Origin: an uncultured Ignavibacteriota bacterium
GTDB taxonomy: Bacteria > Bacteroidota > Ignavibacteria > UBA10030 > UBA8401
Direction of reading: 5' to 3'
Length of the DNA stretch: 64,000 nucleotides
Assembly: GCA_903861125.1 (NCBI GenBank)
Contig: CAIOTF010000042.1
Span: 1 to 64,000, forward strand
The notes beneath the pieces are model-generated. The model was not told the DNA's origin and ran no database searches. It saw nothing but the letters and a program-made list of their open reading frames with translations. Made by a program: the position numbers and the translations under genes. The stretch's first letter is position 1, and each line of letters opens with the position of its first letter. This document shows positions 13,256-42,957 of this stretch, piece after piece.

Positions 13256-13330
13256 CGGGGCCGACGAGACTCGAACTCGCGACTTCTTGCGTGACAGGCA
13301 AGCGCTCTAACCAAACTGAGCTACGACCCC
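13256..13330 (-). tRNA. tRNA-Asp (anticodon GTC)
   Basis: The minus strand folds into a full cloverleaf. The acceptor stem is GGGGTCG/CGGCCCC, the D arm is GCTC/GAGC, the anticodon stem is CTTGC/GCAAG with loop CTGTCAC (anticodon GTC), and the T arm is GCGAG/CTCGT with loop TTCGAGT. The discriminator base is G, as expected for tRNA-Asp. No CCA is encoded, so it must be added after transcription. It lies upstream of the actA promoter region on the same strand. Confidence 0.95.
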
Positions 13331-30649: not shown

Positions 30650-31375
30650 TTACCTTTGCGTCCGCGCTAAGACATAGAATACTTTTTTCTTCACATCCCG
30701 CCATCGGGCAATGATCTCAACATTCTGCAATGTAACATCAACATCTTCGTTGAACAGATCCTGCGATTCGGTCACACTCTTTTTCTGCAGAGACTGAACC
30801 GTACTGCGTGCGGTCCGCGCAAGCGACATAAACGCGTTGTGTTCAGCCCGCTGCCATGAACTTGGTTCATAAAAAAATTCTTCCGAAGAACCGACGCCAT
30901 AGTAGCATCTTGTGTCGTCCGGCAATTTCTCCACCCACTCGGGCTGCTTGATCTTCCCGACGGAGAACCGCTCCTTCAACTGATCGTTCAGTGTGCACGA
31001 TGATGAATCACCGGCAAGAACGATCGTCTTTTGTTTGTCAATAAAAGTATCCAACACTTTCAATGTCGATTGGTAGAGATCGTTCAGAGAAGAATCATAC
31101 ACTTCCGTGTAACTTGCACCCATGGAAGAAACACCGGCTTCCGTTGTCCAAAATGCCTGACCCCCTTTCACGCTGACATTTGTATATTTTGCAAGCAGGT
31201 CGCAGCCAACCCTGAATGCGAGGGCAACGGCAGAATCCCTGTGCAGCGATGGCGGCCTCATCACGGAAACGATCTTGCGCTTACATTGCACCTGGTCCTG
31301 AAAAAGGAACCAGCGCGGATATTCCTGAGCACCGGCAATACCGGCGAGCAGCAGCAGAAGTGTTAGTGTTCTCAT
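30650..31375 (-). CDS. Secreted LPP20-like protein
   Basis: The 241-residue protein has a signal peptide (MRTLTLLLLLAGIAGA) and looks like the LPP20 family, with YYGVGSSEEF and the regularly spaced Ala-rich helix near 180 (AEHNAFMSLARTA). LPP20-type domains occur in outer-membrane or periplasmic proteins of unknown mechanism. No lipobox Cys is visible at the expected place. It is the last gene of the envelope cluster and follows a terminator that lies after the neighbouring LPP20 lipoprotein gene. Confidence 0.75.
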   Translation of the reverse strand: MRTLTLLLLLAGIAGAQEYPRWFLFQDQVQCKRKIVSVMRPPSLHRDSAVALAFRVGCDLLAKYTNVSVKGGQAFWTTEAGVSSMGASYTEVYDSSLNDLYQSTLKVLDTFIDKQKTIVLAGDSSSCTLNDQLKERFSVGKIKQPEWVEKLPDDTRCYYGVGSSEEFFYEPSSWQRAEHNAFMSLARTARSTVQSLQKKSVTESQDLFNEDVDVTLQNVEIIARWRDVKKKVFYVLARTQR

Positions 31376-31384
31376 TCATCCCTC

Positions 31385-31424
31385 AAAAATAAAACGCCAT
31401 CAGGAGCTTTCTCCCGACGGCGTT
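31385..31424 (-). terminator. Terminator after the LPP20 lipoprotein gene
   Basis: On the minus strand AACGCC (31424-31419) pairs with GGCGTT (31398-31393), enclosing GGGAG/CTCC with a short loop, and is followed by TTTTATTTTT. It follows the LPP20 lipoprotein gene (31449), and the next gene starts only ten bases later. Confidence 0.8.
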
Positions 31425-31448
31425 GTGCCTCATCAGCAAAAAAAATGT

Positions 31449-32018
31449 TTACTGGCCTTTTTTGGCTGCATCATATTTCTGCACTTCGTCATCCAGTTCT
31501 TTATAGGTCTGTGATGCGCGGAAGCGCGTATACAACTGTTCATTCTTTTTAATCTGTTCGCGAAGTGCTTCCTGTGCCGCACCAAGCGGATATTCAACAA
31601 GAACGTATGCACGCCAGTTGTTACCGTCTTTTACGATCTTCTTTTGTTTTTCTTTCGAACCGCTCAGACTTGTTGATACAACTGTCTTGGATGCTTGTGT
31701 AAACTGATCAAGCAATTGTGCATCGTCACCAATACCGGTCTCTTCGGTGAAACGTTTTTGAAGAGCATTGATCTTCACTTCAACCTGACGGCCGAGTTCG
31801 GTGCGAGCTGCCTGCGTTGCTTTGTCTACCGCGGTCTGCATATCCTTTGATGTTGACGTATTAACTGCATGTAGATAGTTCGGATCTGATGGCGGACTGG
31901 TGTACCAATCCGGAACATCACCTGTGTCTGTTTTTTGTAATGGTTCGCTTCCGCCGCCGCAACCAACGAGCAATATGGCAACAAACGCAGCAGCGAATAA
32001 AGATCTCAGGATCTGCAT
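31449..32018 (-). CDS. LPP20-like lipoprotein
   Basis: The 189-residue protein starts at 32018, with GGAGG seven bases upstream; a longer frame to 32069 is rejected. The lipobox LLVGC gives an N-terminal lipid anchor, and the mature part has PDWYTSPPSD followed by a long, charged helical region typical of LPP20 domains (VDKATQAARTELGRQVEVKI). It is probably an outer-membrane lipoprotein. The gene is followed by a strong terminator. Confidence 0.83.
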   Translation of the reverse strand: MQILRSLFAAAFVAILLVGCGGGSEPLQKTDTGDVPDWYTSPPSDPNYLHAVNTSTSKDMQTAVDKATQAARTELGRQVEVKINALQKRFTEETGIGDDAQLLDQFTQASKTVVSTSLSGSKEKQKKIVKDGNNWRAYVLVEYPLGAAQEALREQIKKNEQLYTRFRASQTYKELDDEVQKYDAAKKGQ

Positions 32019-32125
32019 AAAACCTCCAATTAATGAGTGTGAAAAATGTTGATTTTGAATTACTGTCATTTACAGGGTAATGCGAATATAGGCAGTTTCG
32101 TAGAAAAAAGAAAGTAACGTTTTGA

Positions 32126-32884
32126 TTAACTGCCTGTAAGTTGATTTATCTCACAAACCTTCCCCAGTTCGATCTTGAATACTTTCCACACCGTCCCCTC
32201 TTTTTTCCTTGGAACTTGAAAAACTTTGAGCAGTTTGCCGTCGCCATATACTTTTACCGTCGCTTTTGAGTCAGAAAGGCCTGTAGAATTTCTCTTGTTC
32301 TGATTCGTGTAATCATAGATTGAATATTCATACAACGATTTTGTAGAGACCTCTTTCACCGTAATCGTTTCAGGGCCGTAACCCTGCATTGCGTCTATAT
32401 CCAGCATACCGGATCCGTCAGACAGCACTTTCATATTCCGATACGAAATATGGTACCCCGTACTTCCCGATTTCACAAAATGAGCGTCCAGATCTCGCGG
32501 TTCTTTGTCCCAATCCACCACAATGCGGACGAACTTAATATCCATCATCGGAGAGATGGAAACACGGTTGAAGAACAATGTCCCGGCCATTATTTCGACA
32601 GGAACTTCCGTCGGGATATAACCTTCCGCACGGATGCTGCATCGCAGTACTCCGTCTTCCGCCGGCGGAGGAAAAACGATCTTCCCTTCCTCATCGGTTG
32701 TATATTCACCGATAGTTTCTACAGAAACAATTCCGCCGCAGACCGGCTTGCCGTTTACGGCATTGGCGAATCTGAGCGTCAGATTCCCGGATTCCAGTTC
32801 TTCGAACACGTCGGAAGATTTTGTGGTGATCTGCGCGGTAAGAGCACAGGAAACAATTGCGATAATGATGACGATTTTTTTCAT
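32126..32884 (-). CDS. Secreted YfaP-like (DUF2135) protein
   Basis: The 252-residue protein has a signal peptide (MKKIVIIIAIVSCALTA). The first part (about 30-110) looks like a carboxypeptidase-regulatory or Ig-like beta-sandwich. The second has WDKEPRDLDAHFVK, GYGPETITVKEV and YEYSIYDYTN, typical of YfaP/DUF2135 domains. The role is structural or binding in the envelope, without a known reaction. Its ATG overlaps the stop of prsW (ATGA), so both are coupled. Confidence 0.75.
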   Translation of the reverse strand: MKKIVIIIAIVSCALTAQITTKSSDVFEELESGNLTLRFANAVNGKPVCGGIVSVETIGEYTTDEEGKIVFPPPAEDGVLRCSIRAEGYIPTEVPVEIMAGTLFFNRVSISPMMDIKFVRIVVDWDKEPRDLDAHFVKSGSTGYHISYRNMKVLSDGSGMLDIDAMQGYGPETITVKEVSTKSLYEYSIYDYTNQNKRNSTGLSDSKATVKVYGDGKLLKVFQVPRKKEGTVWKVFKIELGKVCEINQLTGS

Positions 32885-33594
32885 GATGATTTTACCGGTT
32901 TTTGTCTGAGAATGATGGTTGAATATCTGAACGGAGAATTTTCATTCAGTATCTTCATTGCTTTGAATGATAATCGGAGTCCGATGCCGAGTGAAAGCAG
33001 TGCGCAGAGAGCGATCAGTTCAAAATCGTTGCTGGAAAGAAAAAAGTCATACGCACCGTGGAAGAATGTTGCAATAGCAAGACCGAGTACCAAATACGGC
33101 GCATGATTGTTCCGGAATTTTGCCAGCCCAACAAAATATCCCATCAGCACGGCAAACGATGCATGCGCGGGAACGGCTGTAAATACTCTTACCACCGCCA
33201 CATTCAGTCCGCCATCCAGCACATACATCAGATTTTCGGATGTTGCGAATCCCATCGAGACCATAACGGCATATGTAATGCCGTCGAACGGTTCGTTAAA
33301 ATCCGCAGTCGCATAGGCTACTGCATACAGGCAGAAGAATTTAAATGCTTCTTCCGTGAATCCTATAAAGAGAAAATTATGGATGATGTTGTAGAAAAGA
33401 TTTGAGTGTCCGAAAGGGAATAGTTCGAACAACATTGATTCGATCAGCGCAGTTGGAATGACAATGAAGAATCCGGCAAAAAATGTCTTTAACAACAGCG
33501 TCAGCGGTTCTTTCTCATACTTGTCACGGAAATAGACATAGAGAGCAATTGCAGCGCCGGGAGCTATGGCAAGTCCGAATAACGTCAGTTCCAT
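32881..33594 (-). CDS. PrsW-family intramembrane metalloprotease
   Basis: The 237-residue protein has about seven membrane helices. The PrsW motifs are seen in order: EEAFKFFCLY (the EExxK motif), VPAHASFAVLMGY and FFHGAYDF. PrsW in Bacillus cleaves the anti-sigma factor RsiW. No anti-sigma factor lies beside this gene; the ATGA overlap with the YfaP-like gene suggests a link to the secreted products of the cluster. Substrate unknown. Confidence 0.9.
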   Translation of the reverse strand: MELTLFGLAIAPGAAIALYVYFRDKYEKEPLTLLLKTFFAGFFIVIPTALIESMLFELFPFGHSNLFYNIIHNFLFIGFTEEAFKFFCLYAVAYATADFNEPFDGITYAVMVSMGFATSENLMYVLDGGLNVAVVRVFTAVPAHASFAVLMGYFVGLAKFRNNHAPYLVLGLAIATFFHGAYDFFLSSNDFELIALCALLSLGIGLRLSFKAMKILNENSPFRYSTIILRQKPVKSS

Positions 33595-33598
33595 TTTT

Positions 33599-34942
33599 TT
33601 ATTTTTTTATTTGTTCCAATATTTTCGGAATCACTTTTTTCTGCAGATCGGCCGCAATCTCGTCGTATGCCTTCATACCGGCTTTTTCGGAATTGATGCT
33701 GATCCCTTTTATATTGTTGTATGAAGTTTTGTAGACCTCTTCACCCGAATTCAGATCGGTAACGGAAATATTTGCATCAACGTACACTGTGTACATACCG
33801 CTGTATTCTCCGCCGTCGCGACCGTTGGCTTTCACCGAGATCAAAATATTCGCCTTCGATGCATCGTCAACAAAAGAGAATCCCTGCGCAGAGAGAATAT
33901 TTTTCAGCATCGGTTCGATACGGGGAAGGCGCATTGGATTGCCGAGCATGGATTCTTCTGTTTCAAACGCAATGGTAAGAGAAACAACATTCATTGTAAA
34001 CCGTGCAGACGGAATGGTAAAACTCTTTATCAAAGTTGATAGCATCGGCGATAAGGATTCGCCCAAAAAGGCGGCCGGGTCCGCGTCAGCTTTCACAATC
34101 TGCAGTTTTTCCGTTCCGATCACCTTTGCAATCTGAGTGGTTGCAATCCCTTGCTTATCGGAACGTGCACCGGCGACGATATCACCTGAACCGCGGATGA
34201 ACGAGAACCGGACGGGAAAATTCGGAATGGGTGCCGACGAAGCAGTATTGATCACACTTACATCCAGCGGAGTTCGGAGTGGCTTGCCGACCTGCGCTTC
34301 GAGTTTGCCGTTCACCGCTTTTAGTTCAACACTGTTCAGCACAGATTGTATTGAAGAAAAGAGTTCGTTCGCAAGAAAGATCCTGCCGTTACCGTACTGC
34401 ACTTCCATCGTTTCGCCAAGAAATTTTTCTACGGACGAAAGAGCCTGCATATACGATTGCAGTGCATCGCCGGCATTGTTCCCTTTCTCTGCATTCTTGC
34501 CTTTCGTAAAAAAATCGAGGGCAAGAGCAGCCGCACTGCGCAATTTTTCAGCATGAATTCTCCGGTATTCCGCAATAGAGAGCCGGTGATAGACCCAATA
34601 TTGATCTCCGCCGTCCCACGTATCCACAGCTTCCACACCTTCAAGATCAGCTTTTGTTGAGGTCTGCACCGCCGACTGGTATTCCTCGCTGAACTCGCCT
34701 AATTTTTCGCTCAGTTTGCTTTTTTGCAGTGCATCGATCGAAACAACGATTTGCTGAGCGATGTCGTTCAGCGCGGCATCTTTTGCACGCTGCAGGTATT
34801 CGTTTGTTGTGCCGCTCTTCGGCACAACCCCAATGCCGTGGTAATATCCCGGCGCATTCGGGCGTTTTTCAACCCAGTCCGGTTTTTTACCTTGTGAAAA
34901 GATCAGTGAGGTCAGAAAGAAAAAAATCAGCAGATTTTTCAT
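33599..34942 (-). CDS. Secreted LPP20/FlgT-like protein
   Basis: The 447-residue protein has a signal peptide (MKNLLIFFFLTSLIFSQG). The N-terminal domain (about 25-150) is of the LPP20 kind (KPDWVEKRPN, YYHGIGVV, AALNDIAQQIVV). A beta-sandwich (about 220-290) follows, and then a C-terminal domain with DASKANILISVKANG and YVDANISVTDLNSGEEV, similar to FlgT/LpoB/CsgG-like periplasmic assembly proteins. No flagellar genes are nearby. It lies four bases before prsW, within the envelope cluster. Confidence 0.8.
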   Translation of the reverse strand: MKNLLIFFFLTSLIFSQGKKPDWVEKRPNAPGYYHGIGVVPKSGTTNEYLQRAKDAALNDIAQQIVVSIDALQKSKLSEKLGEFSEEYQSAVQTSTKADLEGVEAVDTWDGGDQYWVYHRLSIAEYRRIHAEKLRSAAALALDFFTKGKNAEKGNNAGDALQSYMQALSSVEKFLGETMEVQYGNGRIFLANELFSSIQSVLNSVELKAVNGKLEAQVGKPLRTPLDVSVINTASSAPIPNFPVRFSFIRGSGDIVAGARSDKQGIATTQIAKVIGTEKLQIVKADADPAAFLGESLSPMLSTLIKSFTIPSARFTMNVVSLTIAFETEESMLGNPMRLPRIEPMLKNILSAQGFSFVDDASKANILISVKANGRDGGEYSGMYTVYVDANISVTDLNSGEEVYKTSYNNIKGISINSEKAGMKAYDEIAADLQKKVIPKILEQIKK

Positions 34943-35109
34943 AGAAGTGCGGATTGAATGAGTGAAGGTGCTAACGTATCACGACAACACACGGATACAG
35001 GTTGATTAACAATTGGAAATATTCTGAACGGGTGCGGAGATTCTATGATCTTTTTTCATTCAAATACTGACAATGCAGCGGACAGATAACCGCTATTGTT
35101 TACTTACCG

Positions 35110-36315
35110 CTATTTGCTCCACTCGTCGTACAATCCCATCCGTTCGCTCACTTTCGCAACGTACGTTCTTGTCTCTTCGTATGGAAGATTATTCCGTAAA
35201 TAGGCAAACACCTGGTCGGAGGTCATCGCATTTATTTTCGGCAATGCCTGAATAACATTCCTCTTTCCGGTAAATGCTTTAGCCACATTGCCCGGACCGG
35301 TGTTATAGGCGGAGATCGTGCAAAACATTCTGCTTTTGGGATCGGTAATGCCGCGGAAGTCGATGGTAAATAGTTTTGTCAGATATGCCGTTCCGAGTTC
35401 TACGTTATTCCCGGCGATGTACAGATATTCACCGGTCACCAGAGAGTCCCGTTTGTTCGCAAAGAAGAATGCATCACGTGCGCCGGATTTCGGAACAAGC
35501 TGCATCAGTCCATACGCCGGGACCGGAGATTTTGCTTTCGGATTGAAATAACTTTCGGTATGCATGATCGCATAGACAAGTGTGATATCGATACCGAAAC
35601 GGCCGGATTCTTTTTTCACCATTTCCCGGAATTCTGCCGCACGCTTTTTAACATGGTCCGGCACAAGCGGCATCTGTACGCCGATCACCACACGTTTGAT
35701 CCCGTCTTTTCCGGTAACGACTTCCTGCGTTACCTCTGCTTTTTTGATGGTCTCCTCGGCATATTGGTTTGCATTCCGTTCGGTGACAGGTTTTCCATCG
35801 GATGCTGCGAGCTGATCGGATATGATCGGTTTTTTTTCCGGATTGATGTCATTCTTCTGTTCAAGCGGATCCGTACCCCCTTTGGCAACGGCAAGTTGTG
35901 CAATTTGCTCTTTCAACTTCTGCCGGACAAGCGCCGGATCTTTTGCTTCAACTGCTGTGACAAGAATTTCAACCGTTGCCTTCCCTCCTTCAAAATCTAT
36001 CGATTTCCTGGAAGAATAGTTCGGATCGTACATAACGTACTTTTCCTTCGTGCTTGTCTTTACGTTACTTTTTCCCCATTTCTTTTCGATCTGTCCGGAG
36101 TATTCCCTGAAAAGTTTTTCCTGCTCTGCAGCATAATCATCGAATTGCCTGGTGACCTCGGCCGTATACTTCTGAAACGCCTGTTCGTCTTCGCGGACCC
36201 CCTGCTCCTGCTGCTTCTTGAACTTTTCAAAATCACTCGTGTCCGTCATGTCTTGCGCATAAACTGCTGACGCAGCTATGAACGAAAAAATTACGATCGA
36301 GAGTATGTGCTTCAT
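35110..36315 (-). CDS. MltC-like lytic transglycosylase
   Basis: The 401-residue secreted protein has an N-terminal MltC-type domain (KYVMYDPNYSSRKSIDFEGG near residue 95, like MltC/DUF3393), a coiled charged stretch, and a C-terminal SLT domain. The catalytic Glu is in HTESYFNP (about E254), with AYGLMQLVP and SAYNTGPGNV completing the family motifs. These enzymes cut peptidoglycan glycan strands, leaving 1,6-anhydro-muramic ends. An ATG at 36324 abuts the Shine-Dalgarno AAGGA, so the ATG at 36315, nine bases further, is the better start. Confidence 0.92.
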   Translation of the reverse strand: MKHILSIVIFSFIAASAVYAQDMTDTSDFEKFKKQQEQGVREDEQAFQKYTAEVTRQFDDYAAEQEKLFREYSGQIEKKWGKSNVKTSTKEKYVMYDPNYSSRKSIDFEGGKATVEILVTAVEAKDPALVRQKLKEQIAQLAVAKGGTDPLEQKNDINPEKKPIISDQLAASDGKPVTERNANQYAEETIKKAEVTQEVVTGKDGIKRVVIGVQMPLVPDHVKKRAAEFREMVKKESGRFGIDITLVYAIMHTESYFNPKAKSPVPAYGLMQLVPKSGARDAFFFANKRDSLVTGEYLYIAGNNVELGTAYLTKLFTIDFRGITDPKSRMFCTISAYNTGPGNVAKAFTGKRNVIQALPKINAMTSDQVFAYLRNNLPYEETRTYVAKVSERMGLYDEWSK

Positions 36316-36331
36316 AATGTGCATTCCTTAT

Positions 36332-38719
36332 CTATGGTACGACAAATCCGCTGACCTCGTCCTTATAGACAGCAATCACTGATGACCGGTCCGGCATAAT
36401 GAACAGTCCGCTCTCTTTGTCCAATTTTGTCTGCCAGACAACTTTCCCGGATTCGATGTTCAAGAGCACAACCTTTCCATCAATGAAATAGAAAATATTG
36501 TTCTTCAGCACCATCGGACGATGATGTACGTACTTTTTGCTGAAATCCCATTCATGGTACCATACTTTTCTTCCGTTACTTGGATTGACACAGGCAATGC
36601 CATCCTCACCGAAAATGATCAAGCGATCCAGTGATTTACTGTAATTAACGTGAAGGACCTTTGAAAGAACCGTAGTAAGCGTTTCCTGAAGGGCAACGGT
36701 TTGCTTCAACTTGATCATTTCTTCATTCTTGAATTCATACGGGTCGCTGCTCAGCCAACGTTCACCGTTCCATGAAGCGGATTGGTTCATCAGTACATCA
36801 AAGTCCATCTTTCCGGTTCCGCTGTCGGAAAACTCAAATTTCCAGTTGAGCAATCCTTTCTTTACTGTTGAGATCGAGTATAAGAATTTTTCGTCTCCGT
36901 AGAATATTGCATTGCTGTCCGACATATAGTTTTTCGTCGAATAATTTTGGAATATACTTCCCGGGTCGTTATCGAATTCCTTTTTCCAGAGGATCCTCCC
37001 GTCCGCCGTATCGACAGCCAGCAGCATATATCCATCTTCCTCAAAAAGAGTTTTCTTTGTAAGTTTTTCCCTCTTTTGATCGTATGAAAATTCCTGTTTG
37101 AATCCGCCGGTGCGGAGATACAGAATGGAATCGATCATTGCCATGTCAAAAACATAGCTTTTTTTCAGATCCTGTTCGATATGCATCCATTTAAGCACGC
37201 CTGTGGTGGCATCCAATGCAACAAGATTTTTATTACCGGGAAGCAGCAGGATATTTCCGATCTTCATCGGAGCTGCCAGCGATGAAAGGCCCCCTTTCAA
37301 AGAGAGACCGTCTGCAATTTTTATATAGTTTTTTCCGACAACACTTCCGCTTATCCTATCCGCCACAACAACACCTTCTCCTCCGGCTCTCTTACTGTTC
37401 GGTTCGATCATTTCTGATGTTGTGTGAATCAGTATTGTGATGTTCGCATCATCAACGGAAACGGAATAGTTGAATCCGGCATTGTCGTATCCGAATGAAA
37501 CCTGAGTCGAATCCGTGACAGACGAAAGAGCGGGAAGGGGCAATTCGCGTTTCGGGAGAGATTCGTCCGCATGCGCAACGAATGTGCGATACATAATTTT
37601 ACCGGTCTGCAAATCGATTCCCATGAGATACAATTTCAGATCATCGCTCGGATCAAGATATGTGACAATGATGCCGTTCGTTTCATTCGCAACGAAACGA
37701 TGGATGAATCCGCTTGCATTCGGAAATTTCGGCGGGGTCTGCCAGAGAATCTTTCCATTCTCAAGATTCAAACCAACAAAGGCATTCTCCTGACTTATTA
37801 CCATTACCAAAGCAGAATCCGTTCGTCCGACAACAACATTTCTGACATCATCAATATCGATCTTCGTTTCTGCAACCGCGCCGGTCTTAAAATTAATGTG
37901 CAGCAGTTTATCCTCGCCGAATATTGCACAGCCGGCAGGAGTAGGAGCAAAGATATTATATTTCTCTGAAATACTGATCGGCCTCTGGGAAACAATTTTG
38001 GCCGAATCGATGTCGACAACAACAATATTTTTACTAAACATCAGTGCTGCATATTTCTGGTCCGCAGTGATATAATACCACGCTCTTTTTTGCTTGATTA
38101 GATCACTGTTCGGTTCGGATTTCGGCAGTGTCAGATTTCTTTTTCCGGTGGTCAGCGATATGAGTGTACATTCATCATTATCCGTAAACGCCAGATATTT
38201 TTGCGCCTTTTCAAGCATGATCGAGTTGACCGTTCCATCCTCAATCAATGACTGCTGATAAGCGACCGGCACTCTCCATAGTTCTTTTCCCGTAAGGAGA
38301 CTTACTGCAAGATCGGTATTTTTATAAGACAGAAGAAGCAATGTATCAATCGATACTACGCCGCTGAAACGATCCTGCCGTATTCCTTGGTATGATTTTT
38401 TCCATACCAAATTATTTTCAATAACGTTGTAGCACAGCAGCGTATCCTTTTTTGCGACCAGATAAAGCGAATCGTTCATCAAGCGGTGAATTGCATCTTC
38501 ATCGTATCCGTCGACGGCGACACTCCACATTTTTTTTCCGGTAGCATTTTCATACAGCCATGCATATTCATCCGACCAGAGAAAAATATATTTACCATTT
38601 TGAATGGGCCTGATCAACTTTGCATCATCCTTGAGTTCAGCTTTCCAGAGTAGTTTATTTGTCTGAGCTGAAAGGATCCCGGAAAAAAGAAATAATAGGG
38701 TGAAGATAAAACGGTTCAT
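36332..38719 (-). CDS. Secreted PQQ-like beta-propeller repeat protein
   Basis: The 795-residue protein has a signal peptide (MNRFIFTLLFLFSGILSA) and about seven repeats of the PQQ-like/BamB type, each with a G-x-x-x-W signature such as GKELWRV, GKILWQT, GVLKWMH, GRILWKK and GKVVWQT. Such propellers act as binding platforms. A cofactor dehydrogenase function is unlikely because the PQQ-enzyme active-site motifs are not seen. It lies 16 bases before the MltC-like gene and 125 bases after the M48 gene. Confidence 0.88.
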   Translation of the reverse strand: MNRFIFTLLFLFSGILSAQTNKLLWKAELKDDAKLIRPIQNGKYIFLWSDEYAWLYENATGKKMWSVAVDGYDEDAIHRLMNDSLYLVAKKDTLLCYNVIENNLVWKKSYQGIRQDRFSGVVSIDTLLLLSYKNTDLAVSLLTGKELWRVPVAYQQSLIEDGTVNSIMLEKAQKYLAFTDNDECTLISLTTGKRNLTLPKSEPNSDLIKQKRAWYYITADQKYAALMFSKNIVVVDIDSAKIVSQRPISISEKYNIFAPTPAGCAIFGEDKLLHINFKTGAVAETKIDIDDVRNVVVGRTDSALVMVISQENAFVGLNLENGKILWQTPPKFPNASGFIHRFVANETNGIIVTYLDPSDDLKLYLMGIDLQTGKIMYRTFVAHADESLPKRELPLPALSSVTDSTQVSFGYDNAGFNYSVSVDDANITILIHTTSEMIEPNSKRAGGEGVVVADRISGSVVGKNYIKIADGLSLKGGLSSLAAPMKIGNILLLPGNKNLVALDATTGVLKWMHIEQDLKKSYVFDMAMIDSILYLRTGGFKQEFSYDQKREKLTKKTLFEEDGYMLLAVDTADGRILWKKEFDNDPGSIFQNYSTKNYMSDSNAIFYGDEKFLYSISTVKKGLLNWKFEFSDSGTGKMDFDVLMNQSASWNGERWLSSDPYEFKNEEMIKLKQTVALQETLTTVLSKVLHVNYSKSLDRLIIFGEDGIACVNPSNGRKVWYHEWDFSKKYVHHRPMVLKNNIFYFIDGKVVLLNIESGKVVWQTKLDKESGLFIMPDRSSVIAVYKDEVSGFVVP

Positions 38720-38844
38720 GCGTACCTCGTTATTGGACTGGATTATTCATTATGAATTCTGGGATCATGCAAAAACACCGGCGAACGATATCCCCGTATC
38801 AAGCGCCGTATTGTAATAAGATTGCGCAACACAGTTTTCACTTC

Positions 38845-40056
38845 TTAACGAATGCCGGAAGAGTATTTCGTAAATCTTTCGGCAAATTGTCTGTCGCTCC
38901 GTGCGCGGTAGCCTTCATCGCGCATTATATTTTGTACGTTCAGCAAACGTTCCTTCATATCATCCTTTTTCATGTAATTATCGTCAAAAATATCGAGGGA
39001 TGCTGATGAAGGTTCATAGATTCTTTGCAGCACTGATACCAACGCAGTCGGGTCATATCCTGCTCGCTTCAAATAGATCATGGCGATTCGGTCTGCATCA
39101 GTTTCATAGGAAAGCAGTCTCGGAGAGATCAAATTATGATAGACATTGTCTGCATATTCCTCCAGTTCCTTCTCTTCCTCTCCCATTGGTCCGGTCTCAT
39201 CCTCAAGTTCGGCAAAAGCTCTTTCTGATTTTATCTTTGCTTCACTCTTTTTCAGTTCTTTCACACCGTGACGCTGAACGACATGGACCATCTCGTGTGC
39301 AAGCACCGACGCAAGTTCCGCTTCGTTCGTGCAAGCCTGGAACATTCCTTTCGTAATGAAGATATATCCGCCGGGGACTGAATATGCCGCAGCATGAGAA
39401 TCGTTCAGAATATAGTAACGAAAACCGAGGTCGTATGCCTTTGTATATTTTGAGAGGTAATTTCCGATCATGTTAAGATAGAGCGTTGCCAACCTGTCGT
39501 TCACGATCCCTTTTTGCGCTGCAATCTTTTGAGCGATACCGAGTCCGATCCCTTCTTCATGGAACCTAATATCGAACGGACGTTCGATGTTCATATAACC
39601 GCGGAACGGTTCAATGGTGAAGCTGTGCTCAAACTGTTCCATATCCTCAACAGTGACGATGGGAGCCGAATATTTACTGATCTCTTCGCCGGTTCCGCCG
39701 CTCCCTTCAACATATTTTTTTCCAAAGCCTTTCACAGCGGCGGCAAGTTCCGCACGCGAGGCGCGGCTGGAAGCCTTCCCTTTAACGATGTTCTCATCGC
39801 GGGAGTTTACACCGCTTTTTTTTACAAAACTATTTTCGGAAAGCCAGCCAAGATCACTCTGTTCTGTCTTCACTTTAAGCCAGCTTCCCTTTTGTTCATA
39901 CTTTGTCACTACAGCCGCTGCTGGCAACGCCGCAACGATCTGATAATACGATCCCGGTCCTTCTCGAAGATAATTTGTCGGCTGCGTGGTCCGCATTGTT
40001 TGCGCATTGCCCCATTGCATGCCGAGAAGGATGACAAAAGAAAAAAATGTTTTCAT
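38845..40056 (-). CDS. Secreted SH3-M48 metalloprotease
   Basis: The 403-residue protein starts at 40056, where GGAG stands five bases upstream. It has a signal peptide (MKTFFSFVILLGMQWGNA), an SH3-type domain (about 22-85, NYLREGPGSYYQIVAALP), and an M48 protease domain with HEMVHVVQRHG as the zinc motif and a downstream YETDADRIAMIYLKRAGYD supplying the third ligand. M48 proteases act in outer-membrane quality control. The SH3 domain may bind peptidoglycan or peptides. Confidence 0.93.
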   Translation of the reverse strand: MKTFFSFVILLGMQWGNAQTMRTTQPTNYLREGPGSYYQIVAALPAAAVVTKYEQKGSWLKVKTEQSDLGWLSENSFVKKSGVNSRDENIVKGKASSRASRAELAAAVKGFGKKYVEGSGGTGEEISKYSAPIVTVEDMEQFEHSFTIEPFRGYMNIERPFDIRFHEEGIGLGIAQKIAAQKGIVNDRLATLYLNMIGNYLSKYTKAYDLGFRYYILNDSHAAAYSVPGGYIFITKGMFQACTNEAELASVLAHEMVHVVQRHGVKELKKSEAKIKSERAFAELEDETGPMGEEEKELEEYADNVYHNLISPRLLSYETDADRIAMIYLKRAGYDPTALVSVLQRIYEPSSASLDIFDDNYMKKDDMKERLLNVQNIMRDEGYRARSDRQFAERFTKYSSGIR

Positions 40057-40141
40057 GGCCGCTCCGTTTATTATTGTCACGTATTATTTTTGCATTCCGA
40101 CCAATACGTTGCCGTTAAAATTACTGTTCACTGATGTCCGG

Positions 40142-42286
40142 TTATTTGGATGTCATGTCGTAAACGCCGTTCCAATCCTTGCCGGGAGGATTCTTTTTGC
40201 ACTTTTCACACCGTTCAATATACATAATAGATGCTGCATCATCCGTTTGCAGATTAAGGACGGTCTTAAACATGGAAATAGCATCGTTCCAGTGCTGATC
40301 CCTGTATAATTTCAATCCTGCTTCAAACGTTTGAACCATCTTCAGCCGCTGCTCGGTGATCTCATTTTTTAGACAGACCACTTCAAAGATCTTGATCGGA
40401 AGATTCTTCCCTTTCACCCTCATGATATCCATTTCGCGCAATAGAAACTGATCCGTCACCTGTTCGGTCGCCGTTGTTTCGCTGATCATCAGCGAAGTAC
40501 CGTAGTATTTGTTCACCCCTTCAAGGCGCGACGCCAGATTCACCGTATCGCCGATAACGGTGTATTCTTTTTTTGAACGGCCGCCGATATATCCTACAAC
40601 CATATTCCCGGAATTGATGCCGATGCGGGTGGAAAAGACCGGTTCCCCTTTTTCTTTCGCTGTTGCAGTCATCTCCCGGACAACGCGCGAAAATTCGTAC
40701 GCAGCTCGGACAGCCAGCAGCCGGTGGTTCGGATTCTTCAACGGAATGCCGAATTGCACCATCACGGCATCGCCGATAAACTTGTCGATCGTTCCGTCGT
40801 ACTTAAAGAAGATGTCGTTCGCTGTAGAAAAATAATTATTCAAAAATTCAACAAGCTCTTTCGGTTTTTTTGATTCCGAAATCGTGGTAAATCCTTCGAT
40901 ATCGGAGAACATGATTGATGCATCCACCTCTTCGCCGGCAAGTTCCACTTTTTCCGGATCGGCGCTCAATTGTTTTACCACATGAGGATTCACGAATTGC
41001 CCGAAGATTTTTTGTATCTGCCGTTTGTTTCTTCCTTCCGTTGCGAAATTCCAACCGATGGAAATGACGTACGTTAGGATCATGGAAGAAATAGGAAAGA
41101 CGATCTTCATCCAAAGTAGTTTATGAAGGAATACCTGGGTTGTGACGACAAAACACAGTATCGCTATGACAATCAAACCGGCAGAACTGACCACGATATT
41201 ATCATTATAGTTGGAGAGTAAAGCGATCACCACAGTCAAGAAAAGACTGACGATGACAATCCATAAAAATGGGATTTCACTGATAAAATCGTTGTTCAGA
41301 TAATTGCTCATTGCCGTTGCATGGATCTCCACGCCGGGATACGGTTCAAGATACGTGAACGGAGTATTTTTCAGATCGAACAAACTCGGCGCATTGGAAC
41401 CGATAAAAACTATCTTATCCTTGAATGTGGAGAGCGGAATGTCAGGCGTCAATCCATCTTTGTCTTTGTACGCTGAGACAATCAGCGCATGGATTGAATA
41501 GTATTTAAACACGCCGTCCGGTCCCCCTTTACCGTACCAATAGATTACATACGGTGAGGTCACGATTTGCTCGATCGGTTTGGTGCTGCCGAAAAGATCC
41601 TTATACACATTATAGGAAAGTGCGTATAGATTTTTTCCCTGATATGAATACTGAAGCGCGATCCTTCTGCAAACGCCATCTTCATCGGGGACAAAATTTA
41701 CCACACCAATGCTTTTTGCCGCTTCCTGGTATTGTATGAGCGGCGAATAGGATTTATCAAAATCAAATTTCTGTGTTTCCGCAATCGATGAAGAAGTGGA
41801 AGGGAATTTCACCAGCGGATCTCCCGGCTGATCCTCTTTCCCCTGTTTTGAAAGGATCGCGGCAAGATAAACGCTGCCGGCATTCTTCATTGCTGCAGCG
41901 AAAAGACTGTCATTAAAGGCACCGACTGAATTAGCCCTATCTTCATCCGGTTCGGTGAATTGAAAATCATAAACAACCGCCTTCGCACCTGCCTTGGAAA
42001 GATATTCCGTTGCCATTGCATAAAAATCACGCGGCCAGGGCCAGCTTATTTTCGCCGTCCGCTTGAAATACTGCAGACTGTTCTGATCGATAGTGATAAT
42101 AACAATGTTCGTGTCGGGTGTGCGTGAATTCTGTGCGATGCGGAATTGAATATCGAGAGCGTTCATTTCCACGACTTTGCCAATATCTGACACTGATATA
42201 AAATATGCCGCTATCAATCCAACGATAGCGGATACGACGGTGCGAAACTGTTTTGAGAAAAGAAGCTTTTTAAACGATGGGGTCAT
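40142..42286 (-). CDS. CHASE2-domain class III nucleotide cyclase
   Basis: The 714-residue protein has a membrane helix near 15-32, a large periplasmic CHASE2 sensor domain (about 35-325), three helices (about 335-425) and a cytoplasmic class III cyclase domain (about 445-650). Metal-binding Asp residues lie in MFSDIEGFTT and KFIGDAVMVQF; VNLASRLE carries the Asn and Arg for catalysis. K in IDKFIGD and T in EYTVIGD fit an adenylate cyclase of class IIIb. CXXC in ERCEKCKK is near the C-terminus. It is the first gene of the envelope cluster. Confidence 0.93.
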   Translation of the reverse strand: MTPSFKKLLFSKQFRTVVSAIVGLIAAYFISVSDIGKVVEMNALDIQFRIAQNSRTPDTNIVIITIDQNSLQYFKRTAKISWPWPRDFYAMATEYLSKAGAKAVVYDFQFTEPDEDRANSVGAFNDSLFAAAMKNAGSVYLAAILSKQGKEDQPGDPLVKFPSTSSSIAETQKFDFDKSYSPLIQYQEAAKSIGVVNFVPDEDGVCRRIALQYSYQGKNLYALSYNVYKDLFGSTKPIEQIVTSPYVIYWYGKGGPDGVFKYYSIHALIVSAYKDKDGLTPDIPLSTFKDKIVFIGSNAPSLFDLKNTPFTYLEPYPGVEIHATAMSNYLNNDFISEIPFLWIVIVSLFLTVVIALLSNYNDNIVVSSAGLIVIAILCFVVTTQVFLHKLLWMKIVFPISSMILTYVISIGWNFATEGRNKRQIQKIFGQFVNPHVVKQLSADPEKVELAGEEVDASIMFSDIEGFTTISESKKPKELVEFLNNYFSTANDIFFKYDGTIDKFIGDAVMVQFGIPLKNPNHRLLAVRAAYEFSRVVREMTATAKEKGEPVFSTRIGINSGNMVVGYIGGRSKKEYTVIGDTVNLASRLEGVNKYYGTSLMISETTATEQVTDQFLLREMDIMRVKGKNLPIKIFEVVCLKNEITEQRLKMVQTFEAGLKLYRDQHWNDAISMFKTVLNLQTDDAASIMYIERCEKCKKNPPGKDWNGVYDMTSK

Positions 42287-42423
42287 GCGTAAAAATTATT
42301 AAGAACCAGATTTTACAACACAAAAGAGCATGATCGTGATAATATCTTGTATGAAAGAATGAATTTTTAGCCTGAAATTCAATGATAAAAAAGGGTTTTT
42401 CACATAAGGTTGACGGGGGTCAT

Positions 42424-42957
42424 TTATATTGAGATTTTCAGCAGGATAGTCAACTTCTTGTAGTCGATCTTTCCTTTGTTCTCCTTCAGATGCTGCAATA
42501 TCACGATTGACCGGAATATCTTTTTATCGGAATCCTTCACATTATTTACAATATACAAGAGTGTACGCTGCTTACCGGGTGTGAGTGCATGAAAGATTTT
42601 TTTCCCTTCCACATCCTGACGAAACACTTCCTTTAATTCTTCCGGAATTGGCAATCCGTATTCGCTTGTATCCTTCTTCAGCAGGATTTTCACATCGGCA
42701 CCAAAAGTCACACCGAGCGAATCACGGATCGTTTTATTAACCGAAATAACAGACTTCCCTTTTTTGTAATGAAGGATCGCACATTGGAATGTCTCTTTTC
42801 CATTGATCGTGCAAACGACCCTTTTTACTTTCCCCTCCGTCAATTCCTCCGCAACTTTTTCCGGTATGGGAAAATGGCAGCCCCATAATTTATTGTCGGA
42901 CCGTTCCAGAGTTGATGTAAATTCGAACGATATTTTTTTTCTTTGTATATCTGTCAT
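42424..42957 (-). CDS. DUF1905 and YdeI/OmpD-associated protein
   Basis: The 177-residue soluble protein has an N-terminal DUF1905 domain (about 5-90, with VKRVVCTINGKETFQCAI) and a C-terminal YdeI/OmpD-associated domain (LPIPEELKEVF, HALTPGKQRTLLYIV). The second domain is linked to bacteriocin resistance and outer-membrane biogenesis, but the biochemistry is unknown. It stands alone, between the cyclase and a divergent PDZ gene. Confidence 0.88.
   Translation of the reverse strand: MTDIQRKKISFEFTSTLERSDNKLWGCHFPIPEKVAEELTEGKVKRVVCTINGKETFQCAILHYKKGKSVISVNKTIRDSLGVTFGADVKILLKKDTSEYGLPIPEELKEVFRQDVEGKKIFHALTPGKQRTLLYIVNNVKDSDKKIFRSIVILQHLKENKGKIDYKKLTILLKISI

Follow-up and report, generated by a model that had tools for sequence, protein, structure and literature searches.

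A conserved cell-envelope gene cluster pairing a CHASE2 cyclase with an SH3-M48 protease in an uncultured Ignavibacteriota bacterium

What could bring a nucleotide cyclase, a peptidoglycan-cleaving enzyme, two proteases and several LPP20-type proteins together in one gene cluster? The question was raised by nine minus-strand genes at positions 30650-42286 of a stretch of 64,000 nucleotides from an uncultured Ignavibacteriota bacterium (assembly GCA_903861125.1, contig CAIOTF010000042.1, positions 1 to 64,000), which is called the window hereafter. In minus-strand order the genes are named cyc, SH3-M48, PQQ, MLT, FLT, PRS, YFA, LPa and LPb (Table 1), and all nine open reading frames were present where a first-pass annotation of the window had placed them. 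The nine genes were found to be a real, conserved cell-envelope cluster built of nested modules. Its oldest layer is cyc with SH3-M48, the next consists of the LPP20-type genes FLT, LPa and LPb, and the propeller, MltC-like, PrsW and YFA genes vary more between relatives.

Linkage of the cyclase and the protease in relatives

Eighty genomes, the window's own included, were searched with six of the nine proteins, then the neighbourhoods were fetched and their genes mapped (genomes and loci carry labels in G and L). Among the matches listed, 20 of 23 high-scoring SH3-M48 rows lay within 1 kb of a CHASE2 cyclase, compared with 0 of 44 low-scoring M48 rows (Fisher 3e-14, not corrected for kinship; the adjacency classes were read by eye, and weak cyclase neighbours could be missing). 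The three uncounted rows were one with a cyclase fragment detected by profile (G001, locus L107), one cut short where its contig stops (G004) and one with other neighbours (G029:C248). A class-wide survey gave matches at E<=1e-30 for 36 of the 391 genomes covered. With a profile of 16 proteases, 15 of them cyclase-linked, named genomes were then scanned, and the best 80 of 419 M48-like loci were kept; a cyclase-profile neighbour on the same strand within 1 kb was found in 48 of these 80, and 6 had less than 1.5 kb of upstream room. The linked loci were distributed over about eleven phylum-level groups by the labels of their record titles, namely Ignavibacteriota/Bacteroidota, Kryptoniota, Cloacimonadota, Marinimicrobia, Deltaproteobacteria/Myxococcota, Planctomycetota, Nitrospirota, Pseudomonadota, Acidobacteriota, Verrucomicrobiota and Riflebacteria, and single labels may be wrong because nearly all loci are metagenome bins. 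Contig ends cut the cyclase genes of L105, L107, L108, L116, L124 and L129, leaving the CHASE2 part outside view. A strong SH3-M48 relative (468 bits) without an adjoining CHASE2-cyclase gene was also recorded in a Thermochlorobacteriaceae bin (L127:9983-11239).

The pair was detected in fused, split and sensor-only forms. SH3 and M48 are fused into one protein in L145, as in the window; separate SH3 and M48 genes follow the CHASE2 gene in seven proteobacterial, Nitrospira and planctomycete loci (L153, L155, L156, L157, L164, L170 and L175; the SH3 matches of L155 and L156 were just below cut-off), with a 4-base overlap between the two genes in L153, L156 and L164. When 15 of the 48 cyclase-family neighbours were analyzed with Pfam, both CHASE2 and cyclase domains were matched in 13, and CHASE2 was present with the cyclase domain not matched in L157 (Chitinimonas taiwanensis) and L160 (Riflebacteria). 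In L157 the reading frame past CHASE2 is unbroken up to the next gene, and SH3 and then M48 follow. As L157 and L160 both keep the M48 neighbour, the protease link is independent of the cyclase domain, and these two loci suggested that the partner of the protease is the periplasmic sensor part of the CHASE2 protein.

The linked cyclases were also distinguished from others of the same type. The window's genome encodes four CHASE2 proteins, and for 14 of 14 CHASE2 cyclases at other loci (12 from relatives, 2 from its own genome) no match to the other eight families was obtained in the approximately 10-14 kb fetched around each. A tree was built from 57 cyclases, 43 of them linked and 14 unlinked, and one change was enough to separate the two groups (support 78), compared with a mean of 12.7 changes after shuffling, where 0 of 500 shuffles gave a value as low as 1; the tree has moderate support, some long-branched rows and an unknown root. 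Its input was cyclases of at least 540 amino acids from the window, the named loci L105-L184 and loci L185-L204, leaving out one minus-strand open reading frame of L160, the copies in L036-L075 and the fourth CHASE2 protein of the window's genome (C41). Just upstream of unlinked CHASE2 cyclases, a protein of about 790 amino acids with an apparent signal peptide was seen twice (L203:2493-4859 and L185:6661-9039), and no Pfam match was found for the L203 copy.

Gene order recurred in relatives, so the cluster is more than chance. The complete nine-gene order was found in the window, G005 and G018, and other relatives carry subsets in the same order, which bore out the co-inheritance that the first-pass annotation had put forward and asked to be checked in related genomes. 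YFA is missing from the G010 locus and the propeller gene from that of G013, the compact G012 locus consists of cyc-M48-FLT-LPa-LPb, and parts of the same order were seen in G001, G002, G003, G004 and G007, where contig ends cut the loci. In G024 and G029, MLT comes immediately after M48. At the mapped cyclase loci, the propeller and PRS genes were confined to the window's family (PRS was not searched genome-wide), and more distant propeller relatives stand elsewhere, away from the cluster. Four extra genes are inserted between MLT and FLT in G007 (L037:5737-13775), one of which encodes 1458 amino acids with Ig-type domains and a secretion-sorting tail.

The LPP20-type layer reached further. 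In the Kryptoniota bin L122, and likewise in its tree neighbours L120, L123, L126 and L143, cyc-M48 is flanked by LPa and LPb; the order is cyc-M48-LPa-LPb in the Melioribacteraceae bin L128 and M48-FLT in the Neomarinimicrobiota bin L141, and M48-FLT-LPa-LPb are adjacent in the deltaproteobacterial bin L152, with no cyclase found there. Since G012, L152 and L128 keep M48 and LPP20-type genes together, part of the association is old. A second family, pieced together from L048-L053, showed cyc-M48 opposite a small beta-barrel gene, a propeller/CsgG protein, FLT and LPa (PF13505, a beta-barrel family, was checked in L048 and the propeller/CsgG protein in L049). The small genes opposite the cyclase (L048:10851-11399 and L049:1658-2224, with PF13505 in L048) may encode an outer-membrane receptor. 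Relatives of YFA or of LPa/LPb were also seen beside or near secreted caspase-domain (Peptidase_C14) genes (L197:3649-5097, L198:2-544, L201:2185-4545 and L047:11737-13335); such a gene adjoins YFA in L198 and L201 and follows LPb in L197, as if the envelope set paired with different proteases. Proteins of about 495 amino acids adjoining LPb or YFA (L128:12736-14223 and L199:3730-5214) have an MltC-like N-terminus by eye and no Pfam match.

Products and control sites of the nine genes

Table 1. Genes and putative control sites of the cluster in window coordinates
Feature	Positions	Strand	Description	Evidence
cyc	40142..42286	-	CHASE2 sensor, transmembrane helices, class III nucleotide cyclase	Pfam CHASE2 170.5 bits, Guanylate_cyc 94.1 bits
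SH3-M48	38845..40080	-	signal peptide, SH3_3 domain, M48 zinc protease	Pfam; start probably 40056
PQQ	36332..38719	-	secreted beta-propeller protein	PF13360 (PQQ_2) 91.9 bits
MLT	35110..36324	-	MltC-like lytic transglycosylase without lipobox	Mltc_N 67.1 bits, SLT 70.9 bits
FLT	33599..34942	-	LPP20 domain, Ig-like domain, C-terminal HpaA/CsgG/LptE-like domain	PF02169 45.2 bits
PRS	32881..33594	-	PrsW-type intramembrane protease	PF13367 125.2 bits
YFA	32126..32884	-	exported, mostly beta; N-terminal carboxypeptidase-D-like small domain, second part of lower-confidence fold	structure model
LPa	31449..32069	-	LPP20-like lipoprotein	lipobox; start probably 32018
LPb	30650..31375	-	exported protein, C-terminal LPP20 domain, without lipobox	PF02169 37.8 bits
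block before cyc	42342..42385	-	promoter-like: TTGAATTTCA, then AAAAATTC and TTCTTTC	alignment of 7 orthologous upstream regions
block before LPa	32081..32114	-	promoter-like: CTTTCTTTT ... GAAACT..CTATATTCGCA	by eye, related loci
hairpin between LPa and LPb	31393..31424	-	terminator-like hairpin with T tract	consensus fold

The domain naming of the first-pass annotation held for the CHASE2 cyclase, SH3-M48, PQQ, MltC-like and PrsW proteins and for LPP20 in two proteins, by Pfam; LPa and YFA gave no Pfam or NCBIfam match at E<=0.01. Both Pfam cut-offs were passed by cyc, a CHASE2-type receptor cyclase that we take to be of the adenylate type by residue rules. Its residues D462, K502, D506, T576, N583 and R587 were invariant in an alignment of 15 orthologues, which upheld the reading of a sensor cyclase at the head of the cluster. 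Peptidase_M48 was matched in SH3-M48 at 56.9 bits (cut-off 20.3), HExxH was kept in 22 of 22 members, and the nearest solved structures of the M48 part were 3c37 (M48) and BepA; the NCBIfam BepA model gave 92.3 of 570 bits, not reaching its cut-off, and no tetratricopeptide repeat (TPR) was matched in the protein by Pfam. PQQ scored 40.9 of 285.2 bits against the NCBIfam BamB model. The NCBIfam equivalogs of MltC and PrsW were likewise not reached by MLT (198.8 of 375 bits) and PRS (169.5 of 225 bits), and the motifs ES.F and EExxK were present in 13 of 13 MLT and 12 of 12 PRS members, respectively.

All nine products are predicted by eye from their N-termini to be exported or membrane proteins, one more than the eight counted before, and the envelope theme stood. 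The description of a set of LPP20 lipoproteins was too strong: a lipobox-like pattern was found in 18 of 18 LPa members, with the Cys invariant in an alignment of 19 sequences, compared with 1 of 12 for FLT, 0 of 13 for LPb and 0 of 13 for the MltC-like proteins. FLT and LPb exceeded the LPP20 cut-off of 25.9, and the similarity of LPa to the neighbouring LPP20 proteins was weak (21-23 bits). The later start of LPa is probable because GGAGG lies just upstream and the lipobox spacing fits.

The structure model of FLT had a predicted local distance difference test (pLDDT) score of 85. Residues 204-321 are Ig-like, with a Z of 11.3 to intimin D00-D0, a match that reflects a common fold since antibody domains crowd the same match list. 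The C-terminal domain (about 321-447) matched HpaA (Z 11.1), a chain of an entry named LPHT ring (Z 9.5), chains of LptDE complexes and LptE (Z 8.1-9.5) and CsgG (Z 8.6). The model of YFA was partly confident (pLDDT 76), its top Foldseek rows being fly Teneurin (E 3.1e-5, TM 0.28) and carboxypeptidase D (E 5.9e-4), and its YfaP-like label is tentative. Profile searches with LPa and YFA brought up no persuasive relative of known structure (best E 0.45 and 0.042).

With longest-frame starts, the tight coupling described earlier was found at three junctions, PQQ/MLT (7 bp), FLT/PRS (4 bp) and PRS/YFA (4-bp overlap), and the other five gaps measured 61 (cyc/M48), 125 (M48/PQQ), 167 (MLT/FLT), 56 (YFA/LPa) and 73 bp (LPa/LPb). 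The promoter-like block before cyc, or one close to it, was common to seven orthologous upstream regions, and for the core pattern TTG..TTT.A, 6 of 7 loci had a copy within the 200 nucleotides before cyc, whereas no copy preceded any of the other eight genes, each examined in 7-10 loci. The short TTGAATTTCA pattern alone is not rare in the window, and only its position-specific conservation is informative. When 28 LPa loci were inspected by eye, the block upstream of LPa, ending in TATATTCGCA or close to it, was recognized in 9 of the 11 that belong to the same family. In the hairpin between LPa and LPb, 9 of 13 pairs carried a compensatory change in a consensus fold of nine chosen sequences; eleven had been aligned, of which the misaligned L197 and L128 were removed before folding, and L045 and L056 were never included. 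More distant loci, viewed by eye, also have hairpins after LPa, some without a T tract. A sigma-70 promoter scan gave 22 sites against 22.4 in shuffles, no excess, and a terminator scan gave 16 against 13.3, little excess.

Because the promoter-like block is conserved and the hairpin covaries, LPa is probably transcribed on its own, and one transcript spanning all nine genes is unlikely to account fully for the cluster. One nine-gene operon was considered and is weakened by these two sites; the single unit of the first-pass annotation is thus better described as nested modules. Separate promoters and unrelated regulation for each gene had been named there as speaking against shared function, and this was borne out in part, by the conserved promoter-like block before LPa and the terminator-like hairpin after it.

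A DUF1905/OmdA-type gene lies on the same strand 137 bp before cyc (42424-42957); a 304-amino-acid gene in the opposite direction takes its place in G005. At Rfam gathering thresholds no match was found in the cluster, and the one tRNA match elsewhere in the window is a minus-strand gene at 13256-13330.

Proposed mechanism and rival explanations

Gene content, conserved linkage, intact catalytic motifs and conserved control-like sites were observed directly. The best reading of them, which we hold at about even chances, is a trans-envelope surveillance unit with cyclic AMP as output. Its inner-membrane cyclase would have the CHASE2 domain in the periplasm, together with the exported SH3-M48 zinc protease, whose SH3 domain may dock on peptidoglycan or on a partner; the protease, or a substrate or inhibitor of it, would set the activity of the sensor. 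LPa, as a putative outer-membrane lipoprotein, and the secreted LPP20 proteins FLT and LPb would form the outer-membrane side that is monitored by the sensor or tethers it, and in the window's family the unit further includes the propeller protein and the lytic transglycosylase, as well as YFA and the intramembrane protease. Cyclic AMP made inside would act through CRP-type proteins; since the window's genome has nine cNMP_binding domains, receptors can be available. The envelope-remodelling or stress function put forward in the first-pass annotation may apply. A bolder version, possible but clearly less probable, is that of an ancient and hitherto undescribed signalling module. Its M48 protease, periplasmic and in many cases guided by SH3, would gate the CHASE2 sensor directly and so turn envelope proteolysis or peptidoglycan state into cyclic AMP, or into another output in forms that lack the cyclase domain, with outer-membrane LPP20 proteins as the far contact. 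The core pair recurs in many phyla and may inform the cell interior of the condition of the envelope, by a route that has attracted little attention.

Several observations weigh against the surveillance unit. Among the 80 M48-like loci, 26 had room for a CHASE2-cyclase neighbour and lacked one, including the well-scoring L125 and L127, and the 80 represent M48 unevenly because the query profile was mostly cyclase-linked. The M48 protein had no SH3 match in Pfam in L160 and L168, and the order in L168 is M48, cyclase. Four of the nine genes are absent from the G012 locus; PRS directly follows MLT in G002 and G006, with FLT absent there; and YFA-LPa-LPb occur without a cyclase in L197, L199 and L200 (contig end). 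No cNMP-binding gene was matched by Pfam among the nine, and LPa has a promoter-like block and a terminator-like hairpin apart from the rest.

The last point is shared by the view that unrelated envelope modules (cyc-M48, PQQ-MLT, FLT-PRS-YFA and LPa-LPb) are merely adjacent under separate control, which is also favoured by the occurrence of modules apart in relatives. The compact loci cyc-M48-FLT-LPa-LPb (G012), M48-FLT-LPa-LPb (L152) and cyc-M48-LPa-LPb (L128) argue against mere adjacency, and we consider it unlikely. Similarly improbable is a role in outer-membrane assembly or quality control, with M48 resembling BepA, the propeller BamB and the FLT C-terminal domain LptE, and with the cyclase only sensing assembly stress. 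BepA is indeed among the nearest structures of the M48 part, a PQQ_2/BamB-type propeller is present, and FLT matches LptDE chains, LptE and CsgG; however, the BepA and BamB models reached only the fractions of their cut-offs given above, the M48 protein is without a TPR match, and 13 of 22 core-pair genomes are without a propeller match.

Still less probable is an accessory role for a surface structure such as a flagellar disk or ring, in which the LPP20 proteins would resemble FlgP, FlgT and HP1456 and the transglycosylase would open the wall. The LPP20 domains and the LPHT ring match of FLT are in keeping with it, and FliG_C was commoner in core-pair genomes (14 of 22 against 12 of 58, at least about 108 bits, uncorrected for kinship). 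Nevertheless, 8 of 22 core-pair genomes have no full-strength FliG_C match (G019 only a 23-bit fragment), on which ground flagellar linkage as a requirement was rejected, and Pfam identified no flagellar gene among the nine. As G005, 100% complete, carries all nine genes without FliG, flagella are not required and a correlation remains.

Comparison with known systems

The earlier statement that no known system combines these functions agreed with literature searches: on titles and abstract openings, with most subscription papers not covered, no paper on a CHASE2/M48 pairing was found, including in the search for LPP20 with adenylate cyclase. It needed qualification in that CHASE2 sensors with envelope partners are known. 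In Sinorhizobium meliloti, the CHASE2 adenylate cyclases CyaK, CyaD1 and CyaD2 receive a signal through outer-membrane NsrA (PMC13001267, PMC7529298). The inner-membrane CHASE2 cyclase is common to both systems, whereas M48, SH3 and LPP20 genes, present in the window's cluster, are not mentioned in the available parts of those papers. No NsrA-like outer-membrane beta-barrel partner was matched by Pfam among the nine genes (the rest of the genome was not searched for NsrA), and a PF13505 beta-barrel gene does stand opposite the cyclase in another family (L048).

The BiofilmReg operon of Burkholderia contaminans comprises a CHASE2 histidine kinase, a response regulator, an exported peptidoglycan-binding LysM-FecR protein and an exported DUF4136 protein (PMC5192318). 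As far as described in the accessible text, it resembles the present cluster in joining a CHASE2 sensor with exported envelope partners, and differs in its output, a histidine kinase with a response regulator in place of a cyclase with SH3-M48 and LPP20. Kinase, response regulator, LysM, FecR and DUF4136 had no Pfam match among the nine proteins, and one FLT relative (L141) matched DUF4136 below cut-off. In Magnetospirillum, the gene of exported MtxA, a protein with Ig-like and TPR-like folds, adjoins a CHASE2 adenylate cyclase (PMC4439547); an exported-protein gene beside the cyclase is thus shared, and the portion of that report at hand names no protease.

The LPP20-type proteins FlgP, HP1456 and HP1454 of Helicobacter act at the outer membrane around flagella, with HP1454 and HP1456 in one operon (PMC11756786). 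They are related exported outer-membrane proteins in a flagellar or outer-membrane setting, for which the sections available mention neither cyclase nor M48, and a lipobox is present in one of the window's three. BepA and other M48 proteases have a similar catalytic domain, and the window's protease differs from them by the SH3 domain in front, the missing TPR match and a score far below the BepA cut-off.

What CHASE2 domains recognise was described as not known in 2016 in the available part of the BiofilmReg report (PMC5192318). A protease linked to them in many phyla, in fused, split and sensor-only forms, gives the input side of these receptors a concrete candidate, and the short versions in Proteobacteria reduce the question to two or three genes.

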